This document shows positions 9,972 to 52,810 of a stretch of 53,795 nucleotides of DNA, piece after piece. The stretch is from an uncultured Granulosicoccaceae bacterium (lineage in GTDB: Bacteria > Pseudomonadota > Gammaproteobacteria > Granulosicoccales > Granulosicoccaceae). Numbering within the stretch: the stretch's first letter is position 1; each line of letters begins with the position of its first letter. The stretch is from assembly GCA_938045275.1 (NCBI GenBank), contig CALIMV010000320.1, positions 1 through 53,795 on the forward strand, in the 5' to 3' direction. The position numbers were made by a program, and so were the translations under genes. The notes beneath the pieces were generated by a model, which was given only the letters and a program-made list of their open reading frames with translations, had not been told where the DNA came from and ran no database searches.

Positions 9972-11090
9972 ATGAGTGCTGGTGCAACTGTTCCTGATCG
10001 TCTTTCCCAAATAGCTGTGGAAGATATGACGAACATCGCGTTGGGCGGTGCGTTTCTTGGCACTGGTGGCGGTGGTGATCCCTATATCGGAAAATTATTG
10101 GCTGAACAAGCACTGCGCCAGCACGGGCCTGTTGATGTGTTATCGGTTGATGAACTCGACGATGACGATCTGATCGTACCGGTAGCCATGATGGGTGCGC
10201 CGACCGTGATGCTTGAAAAGCTCCCGCGCGGCGATGAAGCCAATGCCGCACTCGATGCTTTGGAAAAGGTGCTGGGCAAAAAAGCACGTGCTGTTTTTTG
10301 CATCGAGGCAGGTGGCCTTAATTCAACCATACCCGTTGCCGTAGCGGCCACTGCAGGACTGCCGATAGTCGATGGCGATGGTATGGGCAGGGCGTTTCCC
10401 GAGCTACAGATGGTTTCCATGAGCTTGCACGATATTAGCGCCTGCCCAATGGTTATGGCAGACGAAAAAGGTAATTCGATCGTACTGAATACGGTAGACA
10501 ATCTGTCGACCGAGAAATTTGCGCGGGTGATTACTGTCGAGATGGGTGGTGCCGGATTGATTGCCTTGTATCCGATGACAGGTGCTGAAGCCAAAAAAGC
10601 CACACTGCGCGACTCCATGTCATTGATCAATGCCATCGGTATCATCATTCAGAGTGAGCAGGTAGCTAATCGAAACCCGGCACAACGTCTCTGCGAAGAC
10701 CTTGACGGTGTCAGGCTATTTGAGGGTCGCGTGATGGACGTTGATCGCAGAACCGAAGGTGGTTTTGCAAGGGGTAGCTGTGCAATACAGGGCCTGGGTG
10801 CAGATACAGGCCGCTCTTTGACTCTGGAATTTCAAAATGAATTTCTGCTGGCGAAAACGTCGTCAGGAAACCCACTGGCGATGACACCAGACCTTATCTG
10901 CCTGCTCGATCTGGAAACCGGCCAGCCAATTACAACCGAGCAGATGCGCTATGGTTTTCGTGTGATCGTTTTTGGTTTGCCATGCAATTCGCAATGGCGT
11001 TCAGACAAAGGACTGGAGCTTGTTGGTCCGCGCTATTTTGGTTACGATCTTGATTATCAACCAATAAACGAACTAAACCTATCTGGATAA
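9972..11090 (+). CDS. DUF917 / S-methyl-thiohydantoin-desulfurase-like protein, copy 2
   Basis: A 372-residue paralogue of the preceding gene, sharing LGTGGGGDPYIG, a conserved DELDDDDL stretch, a GGLNS segment, VDGDGMGRAFPE and the C-terminal PDLICLLD and PITTE. The duplication is old, since the two proteins differ at most positions outside the motifs. ATG 9972 has GGAG about 10 bases upstream (near 9958). A 68-bp spacer separates it from copy 1. Together with the HyuA-like protein and the peptide-type importer it suggests stepwise opening of an imported cyclic, possibly sulfur-bearing, amide. The substrate is not visible in the sequence. Confidence 0.85.
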   Translation: MSAGATVPDRLSQIAVEDMTNIALGGAFLGTGGGGDPYIGKLLAEQALRQHGPVDVLSVDELDDDDLIVPVAMMGAPTVMLEKLPRGDEANAALDALEKVLGKKARAVFCIEAGGLNSTIPVAVAATAGLPIVDGDGMGRAFPELQMVSMSLHDISACPMVMADEKGNSIVLNTVDNLSTEKFARVITVEMGGAGLIALYPMTGAEAKKATLRDSMSLINAIGIIIQSEQVANRNPAQRLCEDLDGVRLFEGRVMDVDRRTEGGFARGSCAIQGLGADTGRSLTLEFQNEFLLAKTSSGNPLAMTPDLICLLDLETGQPITTEQMRYGFRVIVFGLPCNSQWRSDKGLELVGPRYFGYDLDYQPINELNLSG

Positions 11091-40359: not shown

Positions 40360-41247
40360 TCAGTCGACGCGCTTTGAATAGGCATCCAGAAAATCCGCGG
40401 CTGCCTTACTGCCACCAGAGAATGATTTCATAGCTTCTTCGTGTAGTAGCGTCATCACTTCTTTTTTAATTTCATTGGCACGAGGGCTATTGACTACACC
40501 TTCAATTGTACGTGGTCGAGGAATATCTATTTCTATAACAGCGCGTGTACTGGTAGGAAGATTGGTCATAATTAACAGTCGGTCAGCCAGAAATATTGCT
40601 TCATCGATGTCGGTAGTTACAAAGAAATTCGTGTTGCGGTCTTCTTCGTAGATATTGGCGTAGTACTCCCACATTAATTCCTTGGACATGTTATCGAGGC
40701 CACGAAACGGCTCATCGAGTATCATGATTTCTGGTTTATTAATCATGGCTCTGGCCAGTTCAGCTCGTCGCTGCATACCCCCTGAAAGCTGTTGTGGATA
40801 TTTATCACGAAATGCCTCCAAACCCACTTTGTTTAGCAAAAACTCAGCTAGATCGGTCGATTCTTTTGTATCTTCACCGCGCGCACGCGGACCATACATA
40901 ATATTGTCGTAGGTAGTCATCCACGGAAACAGGGCGGATTCCTGAAATAGAACCAGACGGTCCTTGCCTGGACCGGTTATGGGTTTGCCATTTAGCGTAA
41001 TGCTGCCTGAATCAGCTGTTTCGAAACCAGCAATCAGTTGTATCAACGTACTTTTTCCACATCCTGATGGTCCAATCATCACCGTAAGCTTGTTGCTTTC
41101 TATGGTGAATGAACAATCAACGACAACCTCTTTGGCAAATGGACCCGCCCCATAAGATTTATAGACATTGCTCGCAACAATTTCGCTGCTGAACTGTTCT
41201 CTTGAATCGGCGTTAGCCGTTGAGTCGTCTTTTAGCTCTGTACTCAT
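40360..41247 (-). CDS. NitT/TauT-type ABC ATPase, H-loop His replaced
   Basis: 295 residues, SsuB/TauB-like. Walker A GPSGCGKST, Q-loop LFQESALFPW, signature LSGGMQRR and Walker B MILDEPFRGLD are intact, but the H-loop that normally reads VTHD is VTTD (codon ACC, encoded near 40610). The N-terminal ~25 residues are a polar extension. Its partner ATPase at 42085-42942 has the opposite defect. Last gene of a - strand importer operon; six bases after the permease stop. Likely part of methanesulfonate or sulfonate uptake for the msm genes (inference from neighbourhood). Confidence 0.92.
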   Translation of the reverse strand: MSTELKDDSTANADSREQFSSEIVASNVYKSYGAGPFAKEVVVDCSFTIESNKLTVMIGPSGCGKSTLIQLIAGFETADSGSITLNGKPITGPGKDRLVLFQESALFPWMTTYDNIMYGPRARGEDTKESTDLAEFLLNKVGLEAFRDKYPQQLSGGMQRRAELARAMINKPEIMILDEPFRGLDNMSKELMWEYYANIYEEDRNTNFFVTTDIDEAIFLADRLLIMTNLPTSTRAVIEIDIPRPRTIEGVVNSPRANEIKKEVMTLLHEEAMKSFSGGSKAAADFLDAYSKRVD

Positions 41248-41253
41248 AATTTG

Positions 41254-42084
41254 TTACCGTGTCTTTAACCAGGGAGTCAGCAAACCACCAAGCTGCCGTA
41301 ATAATTCGCTGCTAAAATAACCGGCAATACCAATACTGATCATTCCAACCACAATTTGCTCATAAGAACCGCCAACATAAGAGCTCCAGATAAAAAAGCC
41401 AAGCCCACCACCTTCGCCACCACCCGAACTGCCACCGCCCGAAATCATTTCCGCAGCAACCACAACCTCCCAGGTTATGCCCATTCCCACAGCTGATCCC
41501 ACGACGATTGAAGGAAGTGTTGCCGGTAACACGATTCTACGAAAGATATCCCACTGTGATGCACCCATTGATTGTGCGGCTTGTAAGTATTGTTTGTTAA
41601 TAGATCTGGCACCACCGAGTACATTGATTACGATGGTATAGAACGCGCCAAGGAAAGTAACAAATGCGATGGATAGTTCTTGTGTGGGCCAAAAAATGAT
41701 TGATGCTGGCACCCAAGCCAATGGCGGTATTGGTCGCATGATTTCAAATGTTGGGAAATACATGCCATAAAAAGTTTTGTTAACAGCCATGAATAGCCCA
41801 AGTGGTATGCCGATAATCATAGCAGCGGTAAACCCGCCGAAGACCCGCAAAAAACTCATATACCAACTCTGCCAGTAGCTCGGATTACCGATCAACCCAC
41901 CCCAGCTGACAAACACATCGCTGGGAGGTGGAACCAATCCGAGAAACGGAAATCGATATCCGAACAACTGCTCAGAGCGCGCACCTACTTCCCATATAAC
42001 CAGGAAAATGGCTATGGCTATGAGGCCGCGCAATGCTGCACGACTGAATAACTTGCTTCTAAAATTCTTTATGTTCATAGTCAA
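41254..42084 (-). CDS. NitT/TauT-type ABC transporter permease 2
   Basis: 276 residues, SsuC/TauC-like, six helices, with FEIMRPIPPLAWVPASIIFWP and the coupling segment AAQSMGASQWDIFRRIVLPATLPSIVVG. A Gly/Ser-rich loop (GGGSSGGGEGGG) lies before the last helices, longer than in typical SsuC. The gene abuts the upstream ATPase stop with no gap. Pairs with the permease at 42942-43826. Confidence 0.93.
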   Translation of the reverse strand: MTMNIKNFRSKLFSRAALRGLIAIAIFLVIWEVGARSEQLFGYRFPFLGLVPPPSDVFVSWGGLIGNPSYWQSWYMSFLRVFGGFTAAMIIGIPLGLFMAVNKTFYGMYFPTFEIMRPIPPLAWVPASIIFWPTQELSIAFVTFLGAFYTIVINVLGGARSINKQYLQAAQSMGASQWDIFRRIVLPATLPSIVVGSAVGMGITWEVVVAAEMISGGGSSGGGEGGGLGFFIWSSYVGGSYEQIVVGMISIGIAGYFSSELLRQLGGLLTPWLKTR

Positions 42085-42942
42085 TTAGCCTTCCTTTTCA
42101 CCGGCATCGAAGGCTTTCTGTGCTTCTTCATGCACAACATCTTTTGCTTCGTTCATAATTTCCCTGAATCTCTGCGATGTCAGAACGCTATAGTCTCGTG
42201 GATGAGGAATATCCACCTCTACGATTTTTTTCGGCTTGCAGGGTCTGGAAGACATGATAATTAGCCTATGACCAAGGAAGATAGCTTCCTCAAGATCGTG
42301 CGTAATGAAGAAGATGGTGACTTTGTTGCGATAGTATATTTCTAACAAGGCTTCATGCATCACCGACTTTGTTAGAGAATCAAGTGCACGGTAAGGCTCA
42401 TCAAATAGCAATACTTTGGGATCATTCATCAGCGCTCGTACAATTTCCACGCGACGCCGTAACCCTGAAGAAACCTCACCTGGATAATTATTTTCTGTTC
42501 CGCTCAAACCGGCATCAGCCATCATTGAACGAGCTTTGTCATAGATTTCCTGCTTACTTAATTTACCCGCCATCATCGGGCCGAAGGCGATGTTGTCGAG
42601 ATTCGTTTTCCACGGAAAGAGGGCACCATTTTGGAACACTACTATGCGGTCCGAACCAGGCACCGCTTCAGGTTGCCCAGGGCCACACAGAAGTTCACCA
42701 TCAAGATGTATTGAACCGGAAGTAATGTCGTGAAATCCGGCAATCGCATTCAGTAGCGTGGTTTTACCACAACCTGATGGTCCGACTATCATGCAAATTT
42801 CACCCGCAGGTATGTCGATCGAACAATGATCAACCGCCATAACTGCGGCACCATCCGGGTCGTAAATTTTGACTACATCTTCGATACGGATGGCACCTTC
42901 AGTTACCGTATCGGTTGCTTGTTCAGTTATAACCGTACTCAT
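42085..42942 (-). CDS. NitT/TauT-type ABC ATPase, degenerate signature
   Basis: 285 residues. Walker A GPSGCGKTT, Q-loop VFQNGALFPW, Walker B LLFDEPYRALD and the H-loop ITHD are intact, but the ABC signature reads VSSGL in place of LSGGQ/LSGGM, with an Arg-rich continuation. In a heterodimer with the ATPase at 40360 the canonical site would combine this protein's Walker motifs and His with that one's LSGGM. The start overlaps the upstream permease stop by one base. Confidence 0.92.
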   Translation of the reverse strand: MSTVITEQATDTVTEGAIRIEDVVKIYDPDGAAVMAVDHCSIDIPAGEICMIVGPSGCGKTTLLNAIAGFHDITSGSIHLDGELLCGPGQPEAVPGSDRIVVFQNGALFPWKTNLDNIAFGPMMAGKLSKQEIYDKARSMMADAGLSGTENNYPGEVSSGLRRRVEIVRALMNDPKVLLFDEPYRALDSLTKSVMHEALLEIYYRNKVTIFFITHDLEEAIFLGHRLIIMSSRPCKPKKIVEVDIPHPRDYSVLTSQRFREIMNEAKDVVHEEAQKAFDAGEKEG

Positions 42943-43826
42943 TAGTTATCTCCAAGAGCAAGTTCACGAACTCGCCACTGCATCAGGTAGTCTCCCAGTA
43001 TTCGCACCATAGCACTGGTGGTATAACCAACTATGCCGAGAGTGATCATGCCAATAATGATTTTCGGATATTCAATCATCATGTAGGAGGTGTTTATTAG
43101 ATAGCCAAGGCCATACTGGCCTGACACCATTTCACCGGCTACCAGCGAGAACCAGGCAACGCCAATAGAAATTTGCAGACCGGTGAATATGTAAGGCATA
43201 GCACCCGGTACTACCACATGCTTGAAAGTTTGCCAGCGATTTGCACCAAGGCAACGGGCCGCTCTACTGTATGATTCGTCGATGGATTCGACACCGAGCA
43301 TGGTATTGAGTGTTGTTGCAAAAAATGAGGCGAGAAAAGTCAGGAAAATAACCGGAGTTTCTGAACCGGCAAACATGATAATTGCTAACGGCACCCAGGC
43401 GAGTACTGGAATAGGGCGAAGTAGTTCGAACAACGGAAAGATAAACTCGCGAAATGTCTTGGACCATCCTAAAAACAAACCCAGTGGTACGCCCAGTGCG
43501 GTTGCCAGAAAAAAGGCAAAGGCGATTCGGCGCAGGCTGATTCCGATATGTTTGTAGTACTCCGGAGTATAGACAGATAAACCATAGTAAGGCTCTTTGC
43601 TAAACCATTCGGTGAAAACCTCGGTTGGCCCGGGCATGTCTACAAAACGCGGTAATTTCCACACTTCAACTGAAAAAAACCAGAATGCCAAAACGGCAGC
43701 AAATCCGATTAGCATTAGATAAGGTCGAGGGCTCTTTAACCAGCTCGACAGTCGAAACATGGTAAGTGCTGCACTGCTGACTTCCGAGCTGCTCGCACTC
43801 GTGGTCGGATCCATAGATTTGTCCAT
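42942..43826 (-). CDS. NitT/TauT-type ABC transporter permease 1
   Basis: 294 residues. The N-terminal ~30 residues are polar and Ser-rich; then six helices with FELLRPIPVLAWVPLAIIMF and the coupling segment AARCLGANRWQTFKHVVVPGAMPYIF. Related to but distinct from permease 2. A 245-bp gap containing a hairpin separates it from the binding-protein gene upstream. Confidence 0.93.
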   Translation of the reverse strand: MDKSMDPTTSASSSEVSSAALTMFRLSSWLKSPRPYLMLIGFAAVLAFWFFSVEVWKLPRFVDMPGPTEVFTEWFSKEPYYGLSVYTPEYYKHIGISLRRIAFAFFLATALGVPLGLFLGWSKTFREFIFPLFELLRPIPVLAWVPLAIIMFAGSETPVIFLTFLASFFATTLNTMLGVESIDESYSRAARCLGANRWQTFKHVVVPGAMPYIFTGLQISIGVAWFSLVAGEMVSGQYGLGYLINTSYMMIEYPKIIIGMITLGIVGYTTSAMVRILGDYLMQWRVRELALGDN

Positions 43827-44071: not shown

Positions 44072-45226
44072 CTACTCTTTTGGACCTGTATATTCTGAGT
44101 CCGGTAGGGCTTTGATTTCTCCAATTGGTGCCGTCAAGCCACGCTCTTTCAGAATTTCTTCAGTAAATTCTGTCATGACAGCATTGTCGCGAAGCTTATC
44201 AACCTTAATGGTTTTGATTGAATGTAAGAACACAGTTGCGGTGTCAATCAGTGCCTGTGCTTTTGGTGTAATCGCAAAGGCCATTTCGTTACGCACATCT
44301 GTACCGCCTTGTTCTTTTGGTGTACTACCAGCCATTGCTTTCCACAAAACCTCTTGCGTAAATCCTGTGGTTTGTTCTTCCGCCATTTCAACGACAGCCA
44401 TTGTGTTGGCAGGGTCGGCCATGAACAACTGAGCATCAAGCTCTGCATTTAACCAGGCTTTAACAACGTCGGGACGTTTGTCGATCAAGTCACCGCGCAT
44501 ATCAATAAAGCCACCATCATTTTCATCAACCGACGCACCTGATGCTACCTTGCGCGCAAGTCCTTCATGTACAAGGCGAGATGCCGTTGGTTCCCAGATT
44601 GCCGCCGCGTCTAATTTTCCGGCGCGAAATCCACTGGTGATGACTTCAATGTTCTGGTTCAGGTAACTGGCAGGTTCGATGCCTTTTTTCTCGAATACGG
44701 CAAGGGCAAAGCGGTCAGTGCAAGCACCTTTAGGAACGGCTACAACTTTTCCGTCCATCCACTGGATTGCTTCATCAGCGTTGGCAAATTCCGGGGCGTC
44801 GTTTTTAACCAGCATGTTGTTGCACTGATCCCATGCCAAACCGGCGGTAGCAACGATACGAATGTCAGCAACCTTATCTTTAGTGGTGGCTACTATTGCA
44901 GGCATATCTCCCATATAGCCAATGTGTTGTTTGCCGGCAAGCATGGCGTTTACAATTATGCCGCCCTGTAAACCAATCTGAAATTCTACCGTTGAGCCCT
45001 CAGGCAAGTACTTTTCGTAAAGTTTGAGACCCTTCATTACTACGCCTGACCAGGCTTCGGTATAGTAGGGTTGGTAGCCCACTACCAAATTTACCGGATC
45101 ACCAATTTCACCGTAATCCAGTTCAGCGGCAGAGGCGTTTGACGTGAAACCTGCTGTAGCAATTCCAATGGCTGCAACGAATGCCAGCGCTGTATGATGC
45201 TTAATCTTTCTGATATTACTTAACAT
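44072..45226 (-). CDS. NitT/TauT-type ABC transporter substrate-binding protein
   Basis: 384 residues with a signal peptide (cleavage near ASAAE). The family pattern is VNLVVGYQPYYTEAWSG, GGIIVNAMLAGKQHIGYMGDMPAIV and FRAGKLDAAAIWEPTASRLV. These proteins bind nitrate, taurine, alkanesulfonates or similar. Upstream of two permeases and two ATPases on the same strand, and 3 kb from the methanesulfonate monooxygenase genes, so methanesulfonate is the likeliest ligand (inference). Known msm clusters carry a linked ABC importer of this class. Confidence 0.92.
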   Translation of the reverse strand: MLSNIRKIKHHTALAFVAAIGIATAGFTSNASAAELDYGEIGDPVNLVVGYQPYYTEAWSGVVMKGLKLYEKYLPEGSTVEFQIGLQGGIIVNAMLAGKQHIGYMGDMPAIVATTKDKVADIRIVATAGLAWDQCNNMLVKNDAPEFANADEAIQWMDGKVVAVPKGACTDRFALAVFEKKGIEPASYLNQNIEVITSGFRAGKLDAAAIWEPTASRLVHEGLARKVASGASVDENDGGFIDMRGDLIDKRPDVVKAWLNAELDAQLFMADPANTMAVVEMAEEQTTGFTQEVLWKAMAGSTPKEQGGTDVRNEMAFAITPKAQALIDTATVFLHSIKTIKVDKLRDNAVMTEFTEEILKERGLTAPIGEIKALPDSEYTGPKE

Positions 45227-45896: not shown

Positions 45897-46811
45897 TTAA
45901 CTTCCAAATTCTTTACGTAATTGGCCGTTGCTAAAGGCATCTTTCATCAAGTCAACGGTTGCTTTTGCCATTGGTTGTATTGGCGCGCCCTTTGCCCAAA
46001 CCAAACCAATTTTCTGGCTTACAGTCGGGCCGCTTAACACTATTTCGCGTGTTCCTTTAAAGGCGTTGTTGGCACGTGTGAAATTTTCCGGAACGATAGT
46101 GGCAACTTCGCCGCTCATAACGTGGAAGGCAAGTTGAAATATTGAATTTGATTCAAGTTGTGGTCTAGGTTGACAGTCTGCTGCAGCAAAGGCTTCATCC
46201 ATGATGCCGCGTTCATGCATAAATGGAGACAAAAGGCATAATGGCAATTTGGCTGCATCTTTCCACGTAACAGTCGATTTCTTTTTTAACCAGTCGTTAT
46301 CGGGCAATAATAAACTTAGCCTGTCTTTGTAGAGCGACATTGTCATAAAGCGGTCGAGTGGTTGCTGGTCAAGATAAGTAATGCCTACATCGAGCTCGAA
46401 ATTGGTTAACCCGAGAGTCATTTGTTCGAGACCAACAAACTGAATGTCGATTTGTACGGAAGGGTGTCTTTCGTTGAACAGTCGACTGAACATAGGTAAC
46501 AAAGGCGAGCTCATTGGCATAGCACCAATCCGTAACCGACCGTGCATGTTGTCACGCATGATAGCGAGTTCTTCCATCATGGCGGCACGATCTGCTAACA
46601 GTCGCTTAGACCATTCAACAATGCGAAGCCCTTCTTCGGTAAATCCCTGAAATTTCTGGTGCCGAAGGATAATTGGAATCCCGAGTTCCTCTTCCAGGTG
46701 TTTTATTCCACTGGATAACGTTGGCTGTGACACGTTGCATCTTTCCGCGGCGCGTCCGAAGTGGCTTTCCTGTTCGAGGGCAACAACATAATGAAATTGA
46801 CGAAGAAACAT
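45897..46811 (-). CDS. LysR-family transcriptional regulator
   Basis: 304 residues. Winged HTH at about 1-60 (FGRAAERCNVSQPTLSSGIKHLEEELG), then the effector-binding domain. It is divergent from the TauE-type gene and sits between the importer operon and the panB-like/msm operon, so it is the only regulator in this module and probably controls it, perhaps with a sulfonate, sulfite or C1 signal (inference). Only 33 bases separate its start from the longest TauE frame, which is one reason to start TauE later. Confidence 0.92.
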   Translation of the reverse strand: MFLRQFHYVVALEQESHFGRAAERCNVSQPTLSSGIKHLEEELGIPIILRHQKFQGFTEEGLRIVEWSKRLLADRAAMMEELAIMRDNMHGRLRIGAMPMSSPLLPMFSRLFNERHPSVQIDIQFVGLEQMTLGLTNFELDVGITYLDQQPLDRFMTMSLYKDRLSLLLPDNDWLKKKSTVTWKDAAKLPLCLLSPFMHERGIMDEAFAAADCQPRPQLESNSIFQLAFHVMSGEVATIVPENFTRANNAFKGTREIVLSGPTVSQKIGLVWAKGAPIQPMAKATVDLMKDAFSNGQLRKEFGS

Positions 46812-46988
46812 GCACTACTCCGTGAACGCAGCTGACATGTTACTGTGGTATCTGTGTTTATCGCAACACTTAAGTTTTCAAGCAATGAGCAAGTATCTTT
46901 TAATGAATTTAGGTGTGCATGGGTCACAAGTCTATTTGCGAGCTACGCAAGCCAACCTTTCGAACAGCGCGAAAACACCCAAACCATT

Positions 46989-47735
46989 GTGATTGATCTA
47001 TCGCATTACTTGCTCCTGGCTCTGATTATCATGTTTGTAGGAATCATGATTGGTGCTATCGGTGTCGGTGGCGTATTGTTGGTACCAGCGTTGATACACG
47101 TGGCTGGCATCGAGATACACATTGCCATTGCTGCCTGCATGTTCAGTTACGCTTTTAGTGGTGCGGTCGGTGCTACTATCTATGCAAGGCAAGGCACAAT
47201 ACGCTGGGCAACTGGTTTGTGGTTGTGTCTGGGAGCAATGCCTGGCGCCTACCTGGGCGCTTTTGTTGTCTCCGGTTTAGCGCTTCGTACTATCACGCTG
47301 GTTATTGCTTTGTTTGTTGTACTTGCCGGCTTACATGCCATGCGCGATTCTCAAAACAAGGCGCACGGTCACCATATTCAATCAAAAATCTTGTTGGTAC
47401 TCATAGGTATTATTGTGGGTTTTGGTTCTGCGATATCGGGCACGGGTGGACCTTTGTTGCTGGTACCTTTGCTGGTATCGATGAATTGGCCAGCGCTTAC
47501 TGCTGTTGGCTTAAGCCAGGTAATTCAGTTGCCAATTGCAGCGCTTGCAACACTTGGAAATTACCTGCATGGCGAAGTTGATGTGAAGCTGGGCCTTGGT
47601 ATCGCTATGATCATGGTTATTGGTGTGGCTATTGGTGCTCGATTAGCGCATCGTGTTCCCGGTTTGCTGCTTCGTCGAGTAGTTGCAGTGGTGCTGCTGG
47701 CGGTAGGCGCGTCCATGCTATGGCAGCAATTTTAA
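46989..47735 (+). CDS. Sulfite exporter TauE/SafE-family membrane protein
   Basis: About 248 residues from GTG 46989 (preceding the first helix, IDLSHYLLLALIIMFVG). The frame runs up to 46845, but the extra 48 residues are polar, unlike family N-termini, and would leave no room for the divergent promoter. Eight helices in two repeats, with IGVGGVLLVPAL and ISGTGGPLLLVPLL, the two TauE half-motifs. Members export sulfite or sulfoacetate or import/export other small anions. Sulfite is the product of methanesulfonate oxidation, so the position upstream of msm fits. The start is uncertain. Confidence 0.85.
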   Translation: MIDLSHYLLLALIIMFVGIMIGAIGVGGVLLVPALIHVAGIEIHIAIAACMFSYAFSGAVGATIYARQGTIRWATGLWLCLGAMPGAYLGAFVVSGLALRTITLVIALFVVLAGLHAMRDSQNKAHGHHIQSKILLVLIGIIVGFGSAISGTGGPLLLVPLLVSMNWPALTAVGLSQVIQLPIAALATLGNYLHGEVDVKLGLGIAMIMVIGVAIGARLAHRVPGLLLRRVVAVVLLAVGASMLWQQF

Positions 47736-47897: not shown

Positions 47898-47991
47898 GTG
47901 TAGGGTTGAATCGGCGATAACAGCCAGCTAAGAACAAGAAATATCGAACGAGACCAAGTATTTAACTACAACAAATCTGCAGGAGAAATCA

Positions 47992-48870
47992 GTGTCGGAG
48001 ACCCCGAAAAAACGAAGAAAAATCACTATCCGGGAACTTCAGCGCAAAATGCGCGAGAAGGAACAGATTGTTCAACTGGCTGTCTATGACTATCGAAACG
48101 CCGTAATCGCCGATCGCTTGGGTGTTGATATTCTCTGTGTATCTGATACCGGCGGGATGGTTTTGTTCGGGCACAAAAGTACAGTTTCAGTGACTTTCGA
48201 GGAGGTCATGATGATGGCTATGGCCGTTGATCGAGGCAGTCAATACGGATTGCGAATGGTCGACATGCCTTACTGGAGTTTCCACGTTTCCCCAGAACAA
48301 GCTGTTGAGAACGCTGGTAAGTTTGTGGCTCAGGCCAATGCTGAGGTAATGAAGTGCGAAGGTAATCAGCATCATGCCAAAAATATTGAAGCGATAGTTA
48401 AAGCCGGTATTCCTGTCCAGGGTCACATCGGCATAACCCCCATGCGAATGCCGCAACTGGGAGGATTTTTTGCTCAAGGAAAAACCGCAGATCGTGCCAA
48501 GGAACTCATTGACGATGCCATGGCCATGGTCGATGCAGGTTGTTTCTCGATAATGTGTGAAGTGACGAGCGAAGAGGTGTGTCAATACCTGACAGAAACG
48601 CTTTCTGTTCCTGTGATCAGCCTGGGAGCCGGCAACAAAGCGCACGGTGTGCATATCATCGGTTCCGATCTGTTCCATTTATACGAAGAACATCTGCCAC
48701 GACATTCCAAAGTTTATACAGATCTGATTCCGATTATTGAAGATGTTTACAAGCGTTATATGGAAGATGTCAAGGGTCAGACTTACCCTGGTCCTGAGCA
48801 TACTGTTTATATGCCTGAAGACGAATTGAAAAAGTTTGCAGCAATGATGAACTGGAAACCAGGCGCGTAG
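47992..48870 (+). CDS. PanB-like (ketopantoate hydroxymethyltransferase family) protein heading the msm operon
   Basis: 292 residues, about 28 longer than E. coli PanB, from a GTG with GGAG just upstream. PanB transfers a hydroxymethyl group from methylene-tetrahydrofolate to a 2-oxo acid. By alignment from memory, the Mg ligands and catalytic residues are all present: Asp52, Asp91, Lys121, Glu123, His145 and Glu190 (E. coli 45, 84, 112, 114, 136, 181), with uniform spacing. However DSLGM is DTGGM, and the conserved D-G-Q after GAG is A-H-G-V (residues 217-220). No panC or panE is near. It is 57 bases before msmA on the same strand, so a C1-related role, perhaps condensing the formaldehyde unit from methanesulfonate, is a hypothesis. 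It could also be a housekeeping-like duplicate. Confidence 0.85.
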   Translation: MSETPKKRRKITIRELQRKMREKEQIVQLAVYDYRNAVIADRLGVDILCVSDTGGMVLFGHKSTVSVTFEEVMMMAMAVDRGSQYGLRMVDMPYWSFHVSPEQAVENAGKFVAQANAEVMKCEGNQHHAKNIEAIVKAGIPVQGHIGITPMRMPQLGGFFAQGKTADRAKELIDDAMAMVDAGCFSIMCEVTSEEVCQYLTETLSVPVISLGAGNKAHGVHIIGSDLFHLYEEHLPRHSKVYTDLIPIIEDVYKRYMEDVKGQTYPGPEHTVYMPEDELKKFAAMMNWKPGA

Positions 48871-48927: not shown

Positions 48928-50172
48928 ATGGCCCGTAGCAGAAATCACGAACAGTGGACTAGTCCACCCCCGTTTACTAGCAGCGAGTATGTTGATAGTC
49001 GCATTTATTCAGACCAGGAAATTTTCGAGGAAGAACTCGAAAAAATATTTAAAAAATCCTGGATTCCTGTTTGCCACGAATCTGAATTACCTGAGCCGTA
49101 TGACTTTCGGACCGTCACCATTGCCAAAGAGCCTGTTATTCTGACTCGCGCAAAAGACGGTAAAATTCGTGCTTTTCTTAACGTTTGTCCGCATCGTGGC
49201 AATATGCTGGAACGTTCACCGTCTGGTAGTTTTCTGGATGGCTCCCCATCCGGTAATCCTAGACACATCACCTGCATGTTTCACGCCTGGCAGTTTGATA
49301 TGAAAGGTCGTTGTATATACATTTCGCGACAGGAAGAAGGCTATCAGGACAGACTGAAGAAACAGCAAATGGGCTTGCGGGAACTCAAGTGTGAGGTTTA
49401 CTTTGGTGGATTTGTCTGGGTAAGTCTTAACGATCAGATTGATATGACTGTTGAAGAATGGTCGGCCGGTTCTCTTGCTGTACTGAAGCCATCTCTGGAC
49501 GAAGAACCGCTTGAAGTGTTCCATTATCACAAGGCGATCATTCCGTGCAATTACAAGCTGTGGCACGACACCAATTGCGAGTTCTACCACGACTATTTGC
49601 ACTACCACAATCGTATTACCGGTTTTAACGATGCGTACTTTGCGCGTAAGAATACCGGATTCGATAATGGGCATATCAATGTCGGTAGCTTCGAGGTGCA
49701 GTACGACAATTATGAAGGTTCACATTCCCGTGAAGAAATTTCATTTCCGCACTTGCCGCCTAATCACTGGTACATGATTGATATGTTCCCTGGCGTTAAT
49801 TTCAACTTGCGTGGGTCGTCCTTGCGCTGCGATATCATGACGCCACTTGGTCCGGATAAAGTCATGATCGAGTTCCGTGGTCTCGGACTCAAGAGCGACG
49901 ATGCGGTTACTCGACGCGCACGAATCGATCACCATAATTCGATTTGGGGACCGTTCGGACGAAACCTTCACGAAGATCTATTGGCTGTAACTGGTCAGGG
50001 CGCTGCGATGAACCCGAGAGCGGAAAAGCGCCAGATTTTGCATGGCCGCCATGAAAACGAAACCATTCACGACGAGAACGGTATGCGACATTTCTATGAA
50101 GAATGGGGGCGCTGGATGGACCGTATGCCCAGTAATCCTGACAAACCGTTTGCCGAATCTGCCGGTGCTTAA
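48928..50172 (+). CDS. msmA: Methanesulfonate monooxygenase hydroxylase alpha subunit
   Basis: 414 residues; Rieske non-heme iron oxygenase that converts methanesulfonate with O2 and reductant to formaldehyde and sulfite. The Rieske motif is C87-P-H89 and C116-M-F-H119, with 26 residues between (normally 15-17). This long spacing is the published hallmark of MsmA. The mononuclear iron ligands should be His221 and His225 or His227 (NCEFYHDYLHYH region) plus Asp350 (HEDLLAV). Length equals MsmA. SD GCAGGAG precedes ATG 48928. It is followed by the small subunit, ferredoxin and reductase in the msmABCD order. An aromatic dioxygenase is the alternative, but the spacing argues against it. Confidence 0.9.
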   Translation: MARSRNHEQWTSPPPFTSSEYVDSRIYSDQEIFEEELEKIFKKSWIPVCHESELPEPYDFRTVTIAKEPVILTRAKDGKIRAFLNVCPHRGNMLERSPSGSFLDGSPSGNPRHITCMFHAWQFDMKGRCIYISRQEEGYQDRLKKQQMGLRELKCEVYFGGFVWVSLNDQIDMTVEEWSAGSLAVLKPSLDEEPLEVFHYHKAIIPCNYKLWHDTNCEFYHDYLHYHNRITGFNDAYFARKNTGFDNGHINVGSFEVQYDNYEGSHSREEISFPHLPPNHWYMIDMFPGVNFNLRGSSLRCDIMTPLGPDKVMIEFRGLGLKSDDAVTRRARIDHHNSIWGPFGRNLHEDLLAVTGQGAAMNPRAEKRQILHGRHENETIHDENGMRHFYEEWGRWMDRMPSNPDKPFAESAGA

Positions 50173-50214: not shown

Positions 50215-50244
50215 GAACGGTGGCGCTATGGCGCGTCACCGTTC
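50215..50244 (+). other. Strong intercistronic hairpin between msmA and msmB
   Basis: GAACGGTG (50215-50222) pairs with CACCGTTC (50237-50244), and inner GCGC arms (50223-50226, 50231-50234) extend the stem around a TATG loop with a two-base bulge. No T-run follows, so a 3'-end stabiliser or processing site is more likely than termination. Confidence 0.55.
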
Positions 50245-50281
50245 AGTACGTGCAAAATCTGTGAATTCGTGGAGAAACAAG

Positions 50282-50764
50282 ATGTCTAGTGCAGACGCTG
50301 TCCGGGACAGCATTTATCGATCCTGTATGTACAAGGACGACATGGAGTGGGAAAAGTGGTTGAACTTGTGTGATGAGGACTTCCAGTATTCCATCACAGC
50401 CTACAGTCCTGAAATAAGAAATGACATGATTTATTTAAGTGGTGGCCGTGACGAAATGCTTGGCATGATGAAAATGTTGCCAAAGCATAATTCAGATCAT
50501 TCACCACTCAAGCGACATTGCTCAGTTTACACGGTCGATCTTGAAGATGATGGTGCAACCGCTACCGCTGTGTCTTCGGTCGTGGTGTATCAAACTCAGT
50601 TAGACGGCATAAATTGTCATGTTGATGCCGGTAGTTCGAATGTGTTTTTGGTGGGGCGTTACTTCGACAAATTTCGCATTGCTGATGGTGTTGCAAAGTT
50701 TGTTGAGCGTGAAGTTAAATTGGACACTCGAAAATTAGACAAAGGCACACACTACCCAATTTAA
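50282..50764 (+). CDS. msmB: Methanesulfonate monooxygenase hydroxylase small (beta) subunit
   Basis: 160 residues, NTF2-like ring-hydroxylating oxygenase beta-subunit fold; it packs with MsmA and has no metal. The open frame extends to 50228, inside the hairpin, but ATG 50282 has GGAG at good spacing and gives MSSADAVRDSIY. Contains WLNLCDEDFQYSITAYSPE and RHCSVYTVDLEDDG, family-typical positions. Slightly shorter than the 181-residue reference I recall. Confidence 0.86.
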   Translation: MSSADAVRDSIYRSCMYKDDMEWEKWLNLCDEDFQYSITAYSPEIRNDMIYLSGGRDEMLGMMKMLPKHNSDHSPLKRHCSVYTVDLEDDGATATAVSSVVVYQTQLDGINCHVDAGSSNVFLVGRYFDKFRIADGVAKFVEREVKLDTRKLDKGTHYPI

Positions 50765-50904: not shown

Positions 50905-51270
50905 ATGTCCTGGAAAGTGGTTTGCGCGAATGCCGATGTGGAAGATAACGCCATAAAACTCTTTGATGTTGACGGGGTTTCGATACTGGTTGCTAGAGTA
51001 GGTGAGCAGTATGCTGCTTACCCGCCGGTATGTCCTCATATGGAAGAGCCGCTGGAAGAGTCGGGCATTTGCGGAAAAGGAAAGCTCACTTGTACAAAGC
51101 ACCTGTGGCAGTGGGACATGATTACCGGAAAAGCTGAACCGGGCCCTGCGGAAAAGCCATTGCTAATGTATGAAGTTCGAATCGATGATGGGCAAGTCAT
51201 GGTTAATCTTGAACAAGAGCTCGAATATGATTTCGATGACGAAGATGACGACGACGATGATGACTACTAG
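50905..51270 (+). CDS. msmC: Methanesulfonate monooxygenase Rieske ferredoxin with acidic tail
   Basis: 121 residues. Rieske cluster ligands are Cys43/His45 and Cys63/His66 (CPH ... CTKH, 17 residues between), with the following LWQWD typical of TmoC-like ferredoxins. It carries electrons from MsmD to MsmA. The last 13 codons (51229-51267) are almost all Asp/Glu, an unusual acidic tail. ATG 50905 lies 140 bp after msmB. Complete. Confidence 0.88.
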   Translation: MSWKVVCANADVEDNAIKLFDVDGVSILVARVGEQYAAYPPVCPHMEEPLEESGICGKGKLTCTKHLWQWDMITGKAEPGPAEKPLLMYEVRIDDGQVMVNLEQELEYDFDDEDDDDDDDY

Positions 51271-51335: not shown

Positions 51336-52376
51336 ATGAAAGTCACTATCACCAAGAAGCAGGAAACACACAGCTTCGATCTGGAAAATTCTGACTCTGT
51401 TTTACTAGCCGGTTTGCGCAGTGGTTTGGCGCTTGACTACGAATGCGCCACCGGTACGTGCGGTACATGTCGTGCGAAGCTGGTTAGTGGAGATTTAGAT
51501 CTTGGCTGGCCAGAAGCGCCAGGCAGAAAAAATCTGAAAACAAAAAGCGGCGAATTTTTAATGTGTCAGGCCCGAACCCGTTCAGACTGTGAAATAAAGG
51601 TTCCTGGCGTATTGGCCAAATTGCCGCCGGAAACGATCAGACCGCGTCATTTCTCTGGAACGCTGAAAGACTGCCAGAAACACACCGATGATGTGATGAG
51701 TTTTAATGTTGAACTCAACGAAAATATGTCTTTTCAAGCTGGCCAGTTTGTGATTATGCAAAGCTCGTCGATAGAGGGGTATCGTGCCTACTCAATGGTC
51801 AGTGATGAAATAGAAACTCGATCTCTGGAATTTGTTATCAAGAAGCTTCCAAGCGGTGAATTCTCAGATTGGATCTTTAGCTCGGCGTGTGAAAACACCG
51901 AACTGTCGCTTTATGGTCCTTTTGGTAAAGCAATATTTGAAGCCGATGGCGAAGATAACATTCTTTGTATAACGGGAGGCTCCGGTATTGCTGGCATGAT
52001 GTCTATTTTAGAGACAGCATGTCGAAAAAAATATTTTGCTGACAAGAAAGGTGAACTCTTTTTTGGTGTGAGGACAGTCGACGATATATTTTTTCTCAAC
52101 CGCTTGGAAAATCTTGCGCAACAGTTTCCGGAAAATTTGACGATCACAATAGCCTTGTCTGATCAAGCGACTGCACCTGAGCTTCCGACATTACCTGCAA
52201 ATGTTAAGTTAACAACAGGGTTTGTGCATTTGGCGGCACGAAATTCGACTCTTACAGCCGCAAATACGATCGCGTACATCGCGGGCCCCCCACCAATGGT
52301 TGATGGGGCAATTAAGGATCTTATAGTCGAAGCAGGCTTTGGCGCAGATCGCATTCGTTACGACAAGTTTGCTTGA
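51336..52376 (+). CDS. msmD: Methanesulfonate monooxygenase NADH reductase
   Basis: 346 residues: an N-terminal plant-type 2Fe-2S domain with Cys37, Cys42, Cys45 and Cys77, then an FAD domain with RAYSMVS and an NAD-binding domain (CITGGSGIAGMMS, later IAGPPPMVDGA). It passes electrons from NADH to the ferredoxin. Same order and size as MsmD. Starts 65 bp after msmC. Confidence 0.9.
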   Translation: MKVTITKKQETHSFDLENSDSVLLAGLRSGLALDYECATGTCGTCRAKLVSGDLDLGWPEAPGRKNLKTKSGEFLMCQARTRSDCEIKVPGVLAKLPPETIRPRHFSGTLKDCQKHTDDVMSFNVELNENMSFQAGQFVIMQSSSIEGYRAYSMVSDEIETRSLEFVIKKLPSGEFSDWIFSSACENTELSLYGPFGKAIFEADGEDNILCITGGSGIAGMMSILETACRKKYFADKKGELFFGVRTVDDIFFLNRLENLAQQFPENLTITIALSDQATAPELPTLPANVKLTTGFVHLAARNSTLTAANTIAYIAGPPPMVDGAIKDLIVEAGFGADRIRYDKFA

Positions 52377-52453: not shown

Positions 52454-52810
52454 ATGTTGTACTGGGCAATTGGATACGACGAGCACTGGAATCGTGATAT
52501 CGGTTTCGATGTGCCAGCGATTTGCGATCATCCCGATTGCGAAAAGGCCATTCACCGCGGAGTGGAGCATGTTTGCGGCAGTGAGCCCTACGGTGGTGAT
52601 TCAGGTTGCGGATTGTATTTTTGTGAAGACCACCTTGAACTCAAAACGCTCGATGCCAGCAAGGAATCAACAGCACTTTGTGCTCAATGTTCTTCAGGCA
52701 AAGAGCCTTTTGAACCAACGCCAGATACCAAAGAGTGGGTCGATTACAAAGAAACCAGTCATTATTGGGCTGGATGGCGAACTTATCATCAAGGCAAGGT
52801 CTCGTCATAA
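52454..52810 (+). CDS. Cys-rich putative zinc-binding protein of unknown function
   Basis: 118 residues, soluble, with nine candidate metal ligands in three clusters: Cys24/His26/Cys29, Cys41/Cys52/Cys57/His60 and Cys76/Cys79. The spacing suits zinc. The C-terminus is Trp/His-rich (HYWAGWRTYH). AAGGATAG precedes ATG 52454. It follows msmD by 77 bp on the same strand and may be the last gene of the msm operon. I do not recognise a function; the layout recalls widespread hypothetical proteins with a small zinc finger. Confidence 0.7.
   Translation: MLYWAIGYDEHWNRDIGFDVPAICDHPDCEKAIHRGVEHVCGSEPYGGDSGCGLYFCEDHLELKTLDASKESTALCAQCSSGKEPFEPTPDTKEWVDYKETSHYWAGWRTYHQGKVSS

Follow-up and report, generated by a model that had tools for sequence, protein, structure and literature searches.

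A PanB-like gene within a methanesulfonate cluster

The window analysed here is a 53,795-nucleotide stretch (contig CALIMV010000320.1, assembly GCA_938045275.1) from an uncultured Granulosicoccaceae bacterium, and contains a methanesulfonate (MSA) gene cluster in which a gene encoding a PanB-like protein, here termed PanBm, directly precedes the genes of a methanesulfonate monooxygenase (MSAMO). PanB itself is 3-methyl-2-oxobutanoate hydroxymethyltransferase (EC 2.1.2.11). The features of the cluster are as follows.

40360..41247, minus strand: second ABC ATPase of the cluster (visual reading of the sequence; homologous genes at clade loci)
41254..42084, minus strand: ABC permease, MsmH-like (visual reading of the sequence, homologous genes at clade loci; named after its place in the gene order)
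42085..42942, minus strand: ABC ATPase, MsmG-like (visual reading of the sequence, homologous genes at clade loci; named after its place in the gene order)
42942..43826, minus strand: ABC permease, MsmF-like (visual reading of the sequence, homologous genes at clade loci; named after its place in the gene order)
44072..45226, minus strand: MsmE-like sulfonate-binding protein (NMT1_2; SsuA family 88.8 bits, below cut-off)
45897..46811, minus strand: divergent LysR-type regulator (family match)
46845..47735, plus strand: TauE/SafE sulfite exporter, upstream of the PanBm gene (PF01925, 134.5 bits)
47981..47985, plus strand: AGGAG, resembling a ribosome-binding site, six bases ahead of the GTG start (direct sequence reading)
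47992..48870, plus strand: PanBm, PanB-like protein of 292 aa with a GTG start (PF02548, 271.6 bits; in a clade of its own, support 100/100)
48928..50172, plus strand: MsmA, methanesulfonate monooxygenase hydroxylase alpha subunit (CXH-X26-CXXH spacer and context)
50228..50764, plus strand: MsmB, hydroxylase beta subunit (name from context; SnoaL_4, 31.6 bits)
50905..51270, plus strand: MsmC, Rieske ferredoxin (PF00355)
51336..52376, plus strand: MsmD, ferredoxin-FAD-NAD reductase (family matches)

The msmA gene begins 57 bp downstream of the PanBm gene and is followed by msmB, msmC and msmD, all on the plus strand. The spacing CXH-X26-CXXH is suggested as an MSAMO signature in a passage of PMC4433239, and the window holds the features by which an MSAMO is recognised, namely an X26 MsmA (CPH-X26-CMFH) with linked B, C and D components in order. 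The MsmB score against Ring_hydroxyl_B (26.8) was slightly below the cut-off of that family. A sequence-only reading of this DNA had placed PanBm at the head of the msm operon; msmABCD do follow it directly, but 256 bp ahead of it, in the same orientation, is the TauE gene, so that the operon may begin with TauE and have PanBm as its second gene. No THF-, glycine- or ZTP-type riboswitch reached the Rfam gathering score upstream of PanBm in the window or in six clade loci.

The msm operon closes with a Cys/His-rich 118-aa ORF (52454-52810) that has no Pfam or NCBIfam match and has a homologue (81%) at the equivalent site in locus L023. Away from the cluster, positions 9972-11090 encode an S-Me-THD-like protein (PF06032/PF20906).

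PanBm retains the catalytic residues of PanB but has an altered pocket

PanBm matched PF02548 with 271.6 bits (residues 10-267, profile positions 1-258 of 259), its sole Pfam match at E up to 0.001, and so falls outside PF08714 (Fae). It also matched E. coli PanB (1m3u; E = 4.6e-45), to which it is homologous over nearly its whole length, although the E. coli protein has 264 aa compared to the 292 aa of PanBm, a length that certain other PanBs share. D45, D84, K112, E114, H136 and E181 (E. coli numbering), the PanB metal ligands and catalytic residues, are all present in the window protein, as the sequence-only reading had stated, and are kept in 71-73 of the 73 clade rows aligned, two of which end before D45. 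The same reading was also right on two motif changes in the window protein, DSLGM being DTGGM and DGQ being HGV preceded by Ala. The Val of HGV occurs in 73/73 clade rows whilst 54/54 other PanBs have Gln, and hence these changes are not noise. S46 is replaced by Thr in the window protein and in 67 clade rows, with Ser in four and the position missing in the two cut rows.

The pocket differs further from that of E. coli PanB, to which the clade is only 29-34% identical. In the alignment, I202, I212, V214, Q211 and F229 of the E. coli enzyme correspond to L, H, I, V and H, respectively, in 73/73 clade rows, and changing I202, I212 and V214 alters the 2-oxo acid or aldehyde scope of E. coli PanB (PMC7610986). 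New polar residues (R88, R152, H128, H221, H238, N125 and Q143) are invariant in the clade. A structure model built from a 23-member clade alignment was poor (mean pLDDT 55) and residue roles are accordingly those read from the alignment.

Profile scores make the PanB annotation of the clade borderline, judged by sequence. The window protein scored 212.1 bits with TIGR00222 (panB, cut-off 207.55), 4.5 above the cut-off, and 250.2 bits with NF001452, below the cut-off of 272. Four other clade members gave 200.8-213.8 and 241.7-249.7 bits with the two models, respectively, compared to 272.6-347.7 and 328.8-370.9 bits for three non-clade PanBs. The TIGR00222 cut-off therefore splits the clade (200.8-213.8 bits), with three of five scored members above it and two below.

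PanBm forms a separate clade found in diverse bacteria

When 84,980 species genomes were scanned once for the window protein, 66 loci encoding proteins of 72-96% identity were obtained, and since the scan used six exact peptide patterns it is biased towards close relatives. The tree comprised 73 clade rows (the window, the 66 loci and six further rows, two of which are the same genes as those of L030 and L066) and 54 other PanBs, E. coli included; a distant piece, L157, was excluded from both the tree and the residue count. The clade formed one side of a branch with support of 100/100 and a stem length of 3.51 substitutions, and PanBm failed to group with the 54 other PanBs, although its position among them is unsure given the long branch. 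Other clade members share 72-96% identity with the window protein whilst the 54 non-clade PanB-family proteins share 30-36%. On these sequence comparisons, PanBm is a separate clade outside the other PanBs and appears to be a variant of PanB not previously reported.

Taxon labels of clade members were Pseudomonadota, Actinomycetota, Bacteroidota, Myxococcota and Thermodesulfobacteriota, although most of these genomes are metagenome bins and certain names are doubtful (two Bordetella parapertussis bins and one Crocinitomicaceae). A tblastn search of 72,556 plasmids (E up to 1e-40) found no close plasmid-borne relatives, with 174 records matched, all at <60% identity, and the 40 of 174 matches listed at 35-37%.

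Neighbours of PanBm are often methanesulfonate, sulfite or THF genes

In order to count neighbours, seed searches were made at 67 loci (the window and the 66 others). MsmA, MsmB, MsmC, MsmD and MsmE were found at 30, 28, 30, 27 and 30 of these, and TauE, GcvT-like, FolD, Fhs and SoxC-type genes at 42, 27, 15, 10 and 7, respectively, with PanC at none; the SoxC-type sulfite dehydrogenase was identified via TIGR04555 for one member. Grouped together, msm or sulfonate-transport genes (any of MsmA, MsmB, MsmD and MsmE, or else two or more sulfonate-ABC genes above 50% identity) lay near PanBm in 47/67 loci, sulfite genes (TauE/SoxC) in 46/67 and THF one-carbon genes (GcvT-like, FolD or Fhs) in 37/67. 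At least one of the three groups was present in 61/67 loci, and in 43/46 of those where 3 kb or more is available on either side; none was present in L030, L045, L053, L059, L061 and L063, the last three of which offer under 3 kb on one side. The immediately next gene was msmA in 23 loci. Where MsmA was out of reach (37 loci), TauE/SoxC was found in 22, THF genes in 24 and MsmB-E in 11; several betaproteobacterial loci hold MsmE, some also MsmB/C/D, at the edge of the stretch. No MsmA-E gene was in reach at 26/67 loci, no THF gene at 30/67 and no GcvT-like gene at 40/67, the window being among the loci without THF or GcvT-like genes. The X26 spacer was found in 29/30 clade-locus MsmAs (window counted), with a spacer of 17 in L074.

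As controls we used 20 non-clade panB stretches from the same genome set, chosen by size of contig. PanC was found in 12 of these and HpcH in one; an ABC ATPase was matched in three and an ABC permease in one, these ABC matches all being at <35% identity, with no seed match to msm, TauE, GcvT, FolD, Fhs or SoxC in any of the 20. Fisher p values for clade versus control loci were 1.6e-7 for TauE, 2.9e-6 for THF genes and 7e-10 for PanC, and are optimistic since the loci are related. Across the 29 loci with both proteins, PanBm and MsmA distances correlated (Mantel rho 0.64, 0/2000 permutations) and PanBm showed the higher conservation of the two in 97% of the 406 locus pairs. The sequence-only reading had raised the question of a PanB paralogue of msm clusters set apart from housekeeping PanB, and both the 100/100 clade separation and the recurrent linkage speak for one; that the linkage might be unique to this strain is refuted, with the clade tied to methanesulfonate clusters in diverse bacteria.

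A small protein with a cNMP-binding domain (PF00027, checked for L062) is encoded directly after PanBm in 14/67 loci (betaproteobacterial, e.g. L062, L067 and L071), and in 12 loci a gene for an NtrC-type regulator lies immediately ahead of it.

PanBm is common but not universal in methanesulfonate clusters

We also began from MsmA, searching 369 gammaproteobacterial, 385 alphaproteobacterial and 397 Hyphomicrobiales genomes (E up to 1e-60; class and order labels deduced from the anchor genomes G000, G065 and G080) and then seeking PanBm in the MsmA-positive genomes. The count leaves out the window's own genome and the anchors G065 and G080, which were chosen for having PanBm. PanBm was present in 10/16 genomes with an X26 MsmA (G296, G138, G661, G751, G867, G1190, G873, G1048, G1172 and G850, of which G138 is the genome of L066, though drawn independently) and in 0/7 with X17-only relatives (Fisher p = 0.0075), and was absent from the X26 genomes G1005, G1021, G1043, G1154, G1191 and G1196. 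PanBm in MSA clusters is thus common but not universal, and since it had no match in 6/12 Hyphomicrobiales genomes with an X26 MsmA (anchor G080 excluded) MSA use seems not to need it. The six X26 loci lacking PanBm retain msm, TauE and LysR, and four of them MsmE and ABC genes, but had no GcvT, FolD or Fhs seed within ~10 kb, whereas of six Hyphomicrobiales loci with PanBm four had GcvT or Fhs and the other two were cut by contig ends (p = 0.06). PanBm and THF genes may therefore travel jointly as an optional module of MSA clusters.

Two of the PanBm-bearing alphaproteobacterial genomes, G661 (L241) and G751 (L243; L242, L144), encode a 788-811 aa MsmA-like ORF with the X26 Rieske motif as well as a separate motif-less MsmA-like ORF of ~365-374 aa near LysR-TauE-PanBm-Fhs, which could represent a fused or duplicated oxygenase. 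In L233 (G1154, no PanBm) msmA lies in two ORFs (query 4-165 and 185-412), reflecting a frameshift, sequencing error or decay.

Genomic context weakens a pantothenate role for PanBm

The genome from which the window derives (5.75 Mb, 82% complete) contained no PF02548 match other than PanBm and no match to PanC (PF02569). PanC was likewise absent from G029 (98% complete) and G005 (90%), where PanBm is also the only PanB match. The usual pantothenate route is therefore unlikely in the window's genome and in G029. We further searched 48 clade-carrying genomes, most of them metagenome bins, for PF02548 and PanC. Clade members scored 255-277 bits with PF02548, and another PanB of at least 290 bits was present in 31/48 carriers; 10/48 had a single PF02548 match, and PanC was present in 35/48 and not found in 13/48. 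Six of the ten single-match carriers had no PanC, whilst G076, G089, G094 and G103 had panC, and for these four a pantothenate role of PanBm keeps some probability. Of what the sequence-only reading had named as counting against its idea, a sole panB that serves pantothenate synthesis, one part holds, in that PanBm is the only panB found in its 82%-complete genome, yet no panC was found there or in G029. A second panB, not found in that genome, does occur in most carriers.

Within the window's genus no PanB match was found in 17/27 genomes and no PanC match in 19/27 (own genome included), and two of the eight PanC matches were fragments. This suggests that pantothenate auxotrophy or uptake is widespread in the genus (G001-G026). 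Besides the window's own genome, G005 was the only sampled member of the genus with PanBm, and outside the genus the family had it in G027 and G029; the lineage would appear mostly to be without a pantothenate pathway, with the PanBm gene presumably an accessory.

We regard it as highly improbable that in PanBm the operon has captured an ordinary PanB of pantothenate synthesis. PanBm being the only PF02548 gene found in its genome, the passing of the TIGR00222 cut-off and the panC of the four single-PanB carriers speak for this, but are set against the missing panC in its own genome and 13 carriers, the higher-scoring PanB in most carriers, the NF001452 score under cut-off, the separate clade with its altered pocket, and panC near 0/67 clade loci compared to 12/20 other panB loci. 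The pantothenate role was set aside, being weakened by the missing panC and the second PanB, save for the four single-PanB carriers with panC.

Proposed role of PanBm in loading C1 units onto THF

What PanBm might do was considered against the C1 metabolism of its carriers. Of 49 carriers, three (G061, G087 and G092) had Fae, the formaldehyde-activating enzyme for H4MPT, and 43 had Fhs, the copy in the window's genome being a piece at a contig end; three genomes are entered twice in the Fhs survey. Fhs was also found in 22/24 relatives without PanBm and is thus non-discriminating. The uncatalysed condensation of formaldehyde with THF was calculated by He et al. 2020 (PMC7073904) to be too slow, allowing a doubling time of only 24 days, and the same paper names PanB as a conceivable catalyst that would add formaldehyde to an oxo acid and then run the reverse reaction. 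An E. coli strain deleted for panB and ltaE behaved no differently (PMC7073904), and ordinary PanB thus gave no sign of this activity in living cells. PMC4814558 reports evidence that PanB can, as a side activity, cleave methylene-THF.

The reading that we favour, at a little below even confidence and from comparative sequence evidence, is that PanBm passes the MSA-derived C1 unit to THF, either directly or via a 2-oxo acid shuttle. PanBm would then be a PanB with a new job in the catabolism of methanesulfonate and probably also of other C1-sulfonates. The MSA monooxygenase converts CH3SO3- to formaldehyde and sulfite. PanBm, as a metal-dependent C1-transfer enzyme, would help to move the formaldehyde carbon to THF as 5,10-methylene-THF, its PanB chemistry running towards THF loading directly or through the 2-oxo acid shuttle, and FolD and Fhs would oxidise the product to formate with ATP gain, unless the C1 unit entered assimilation; the sulfite would be handled by TauE and SoxC. 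We infer the substrate, the direction of the reaction and the participation of a 2-oxo acid. The kept catalytic residues argue for a metal-dependent transfer of C1 units that involves a 2-oxo acid or a ligand of that kind, and the changed pocket for a substrate other than 3-methyl-2-oxobutanoate, whilst THF loading is favoured because the recurrent partners are THF and sulfite enzymes and because Fae is rare and Fhs frequent amongst carriers. Counting against it are the 30/67 loci with no THF gene, the 26/67 with no MsmA-E in reach, and the similar frequency of Fhs in relatives without PanBm. A broader version, which we consider possible but doubtful, would make PanBm the missing folate counterpart of Fae, a dedicated enzyme derived from PanB that loads the C1 unit of MSA (as formaldehyde, or from hydroxymethanesulfonate with sulfite being freed) onto THF and having spread horizontally with msm into five labelled phyla.

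Four alternatives to THF loading by PanBm bear on the same evidence, that of an ordinary PanB having been dealt with above. The sequence-only reading had the C1 unit captured on a 2-oxo acid, and this retains the support of the PanB catalytic residues, but the recurring partners are GcvT-like, FolD and Fhs rather than enzymes of hydroxymethyl-2-oxo acids, and transfer of the C1 unit to THF is therefore more probable than its retention on the oxo acid. In its full form, with PanBm placing the C1 unit of formaldehyde or methylene-THF on some 2-oxo acid different from 3-methyl-2-oxobutanoate and the hydroxymethyl 2-oxo acid being assimilated, we judge this unlikely: the enolisation residues are retained with an altered side-chain pocket, E. 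coli PanB takes formaldehyde and both wild type and variants take other 2-oxo acids (PMC7610986), and L029 and L030 have an HpcH/HpaI aldolase and D-2-hydroxyacid dehydrogenase beside PanBm, yet amongst the seeded families these two occur in 2/67 loci compared to 37/67 for THF genes. Outside the seeded families, aminotransferases are present in a few clade loci.

Distinctly unlikely, on the sequence evidence, is that PanBm moves the hydroxymethyl group of hydroxymethanesulfonate, the expected MSAMO product, to THF and frees sulfite in one step. The hydroxymethanesulfonate adduct breaks down slowly at neutral pH. Such a role would fit with the invariant new polar residues (read from the alignment), the TauE/SoxC genes near 46/67 loci (including 22/37 with no MsmA in reach) and the ABC sulfonate-type importers adjoining PanBm in L028, L060 and L065, again with no MsmA in reach, and with both products around the equilibrium favours the adduct (PMC6459274; at pH above the bisulfite pKa, K is about 2e-4 M); against this, the idea is pure inference and the retained enolisation residues exceed what such a reaction would need. 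Finally, THF loading could be the work of the GcvT-like neighbour, with PanBm confined to formaldehyde protection or a regulatory or accessory task. GcvT-like THF domains (aminomethyltransferase, TMAO demethylase, sarcosine oxidase), which belong to a different family from PanBm, perform THF C1 chemistry, the family neighbours PanBm in 27/67 loci and the L062 neighbour is nearest to aminomethyltransferases and the TMAO demethylase THF domain, although below NCBIfam cut-offs; with 40/67 loci, the window included, having no GcvT-like gene in reach, we find this quite improbable. Glutathione-linked formaldehyde oxidation is a possible alternative sink.

Relation to known systems

Fae (PF08714) has the job that genomic context suggests for PanBm, placing formaldehyde on a C1 carrier, but is of a different Pfam family and uses H4MPT. 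Filomicrobium strain Y is reported (PMC4424283) to have both THF and H4MPT pathways, which counts against a simple replacement of Fae.

Table 1 of PMC4433239 (2015) lists for the same strain a ‘3-methyl-2-oxobutanoate hydroxymethyltransferase’ beside msm under ‘C1-moiety transfer’, together with TauE, GcvT, SoxC, SoxD and ABC genes, and the text of that paper calls the genes linked to methylotrophic pathways and the corresponding segment of strain W identical. The gene order in strain Y (LysR-TauE-GcvT-PanB-SoxC-SoxD-ABC-msm) is the same as in L235 (G1048), and it is by this order that we equate the strain Y gene, which appears in PMC4433239 as one table line and one phrase, with PanBm. The sequence-only reading knew of no description of such a route; the linkage, at least, is listed in that table. 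No report of the PanBm clade, its signature or its spread was found within the open-access PMC literature, subscription papers being outside this field, and the linkage, which is genuine and widespread, is for the most part unreported within the literature searched.

MSA is described in PMC4433239 as a relevant sulfur-cycle compound. Its breakdown yields formaldehyde that the cell must handle, and PanBm is a candidate for a missing catalyst of the reaction between formaldehyde and THF. PanBm proteins may be misnamed as pantothenate enzymes, in which case some likely auxotrophs would resemble partial producers, and PanBm could mark MSA clusters alongside msmA, though some such clusters are without it.

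Further clusters containing PanBm

Four Actinomycetota loci (L050, L076, L078 and L080, including Pseudonocardia asaccharolytica) place PanBm close to genes for a small Rieske ferredoxin and an Amidohydro_2 protein, joined at three of these loci by one for a Rieske + DUF2231 protein, with no MsmA in reach; these clusters may serve another C1-sulfur substrate. In L029 and L030 PanBm also adjoins a HAD hydrolase, beside the aldolase and dehydrogenase noted above, with TauE additionally present in L029, and these two loci are the best spot in which to seek 2-oxo acid chemistry.
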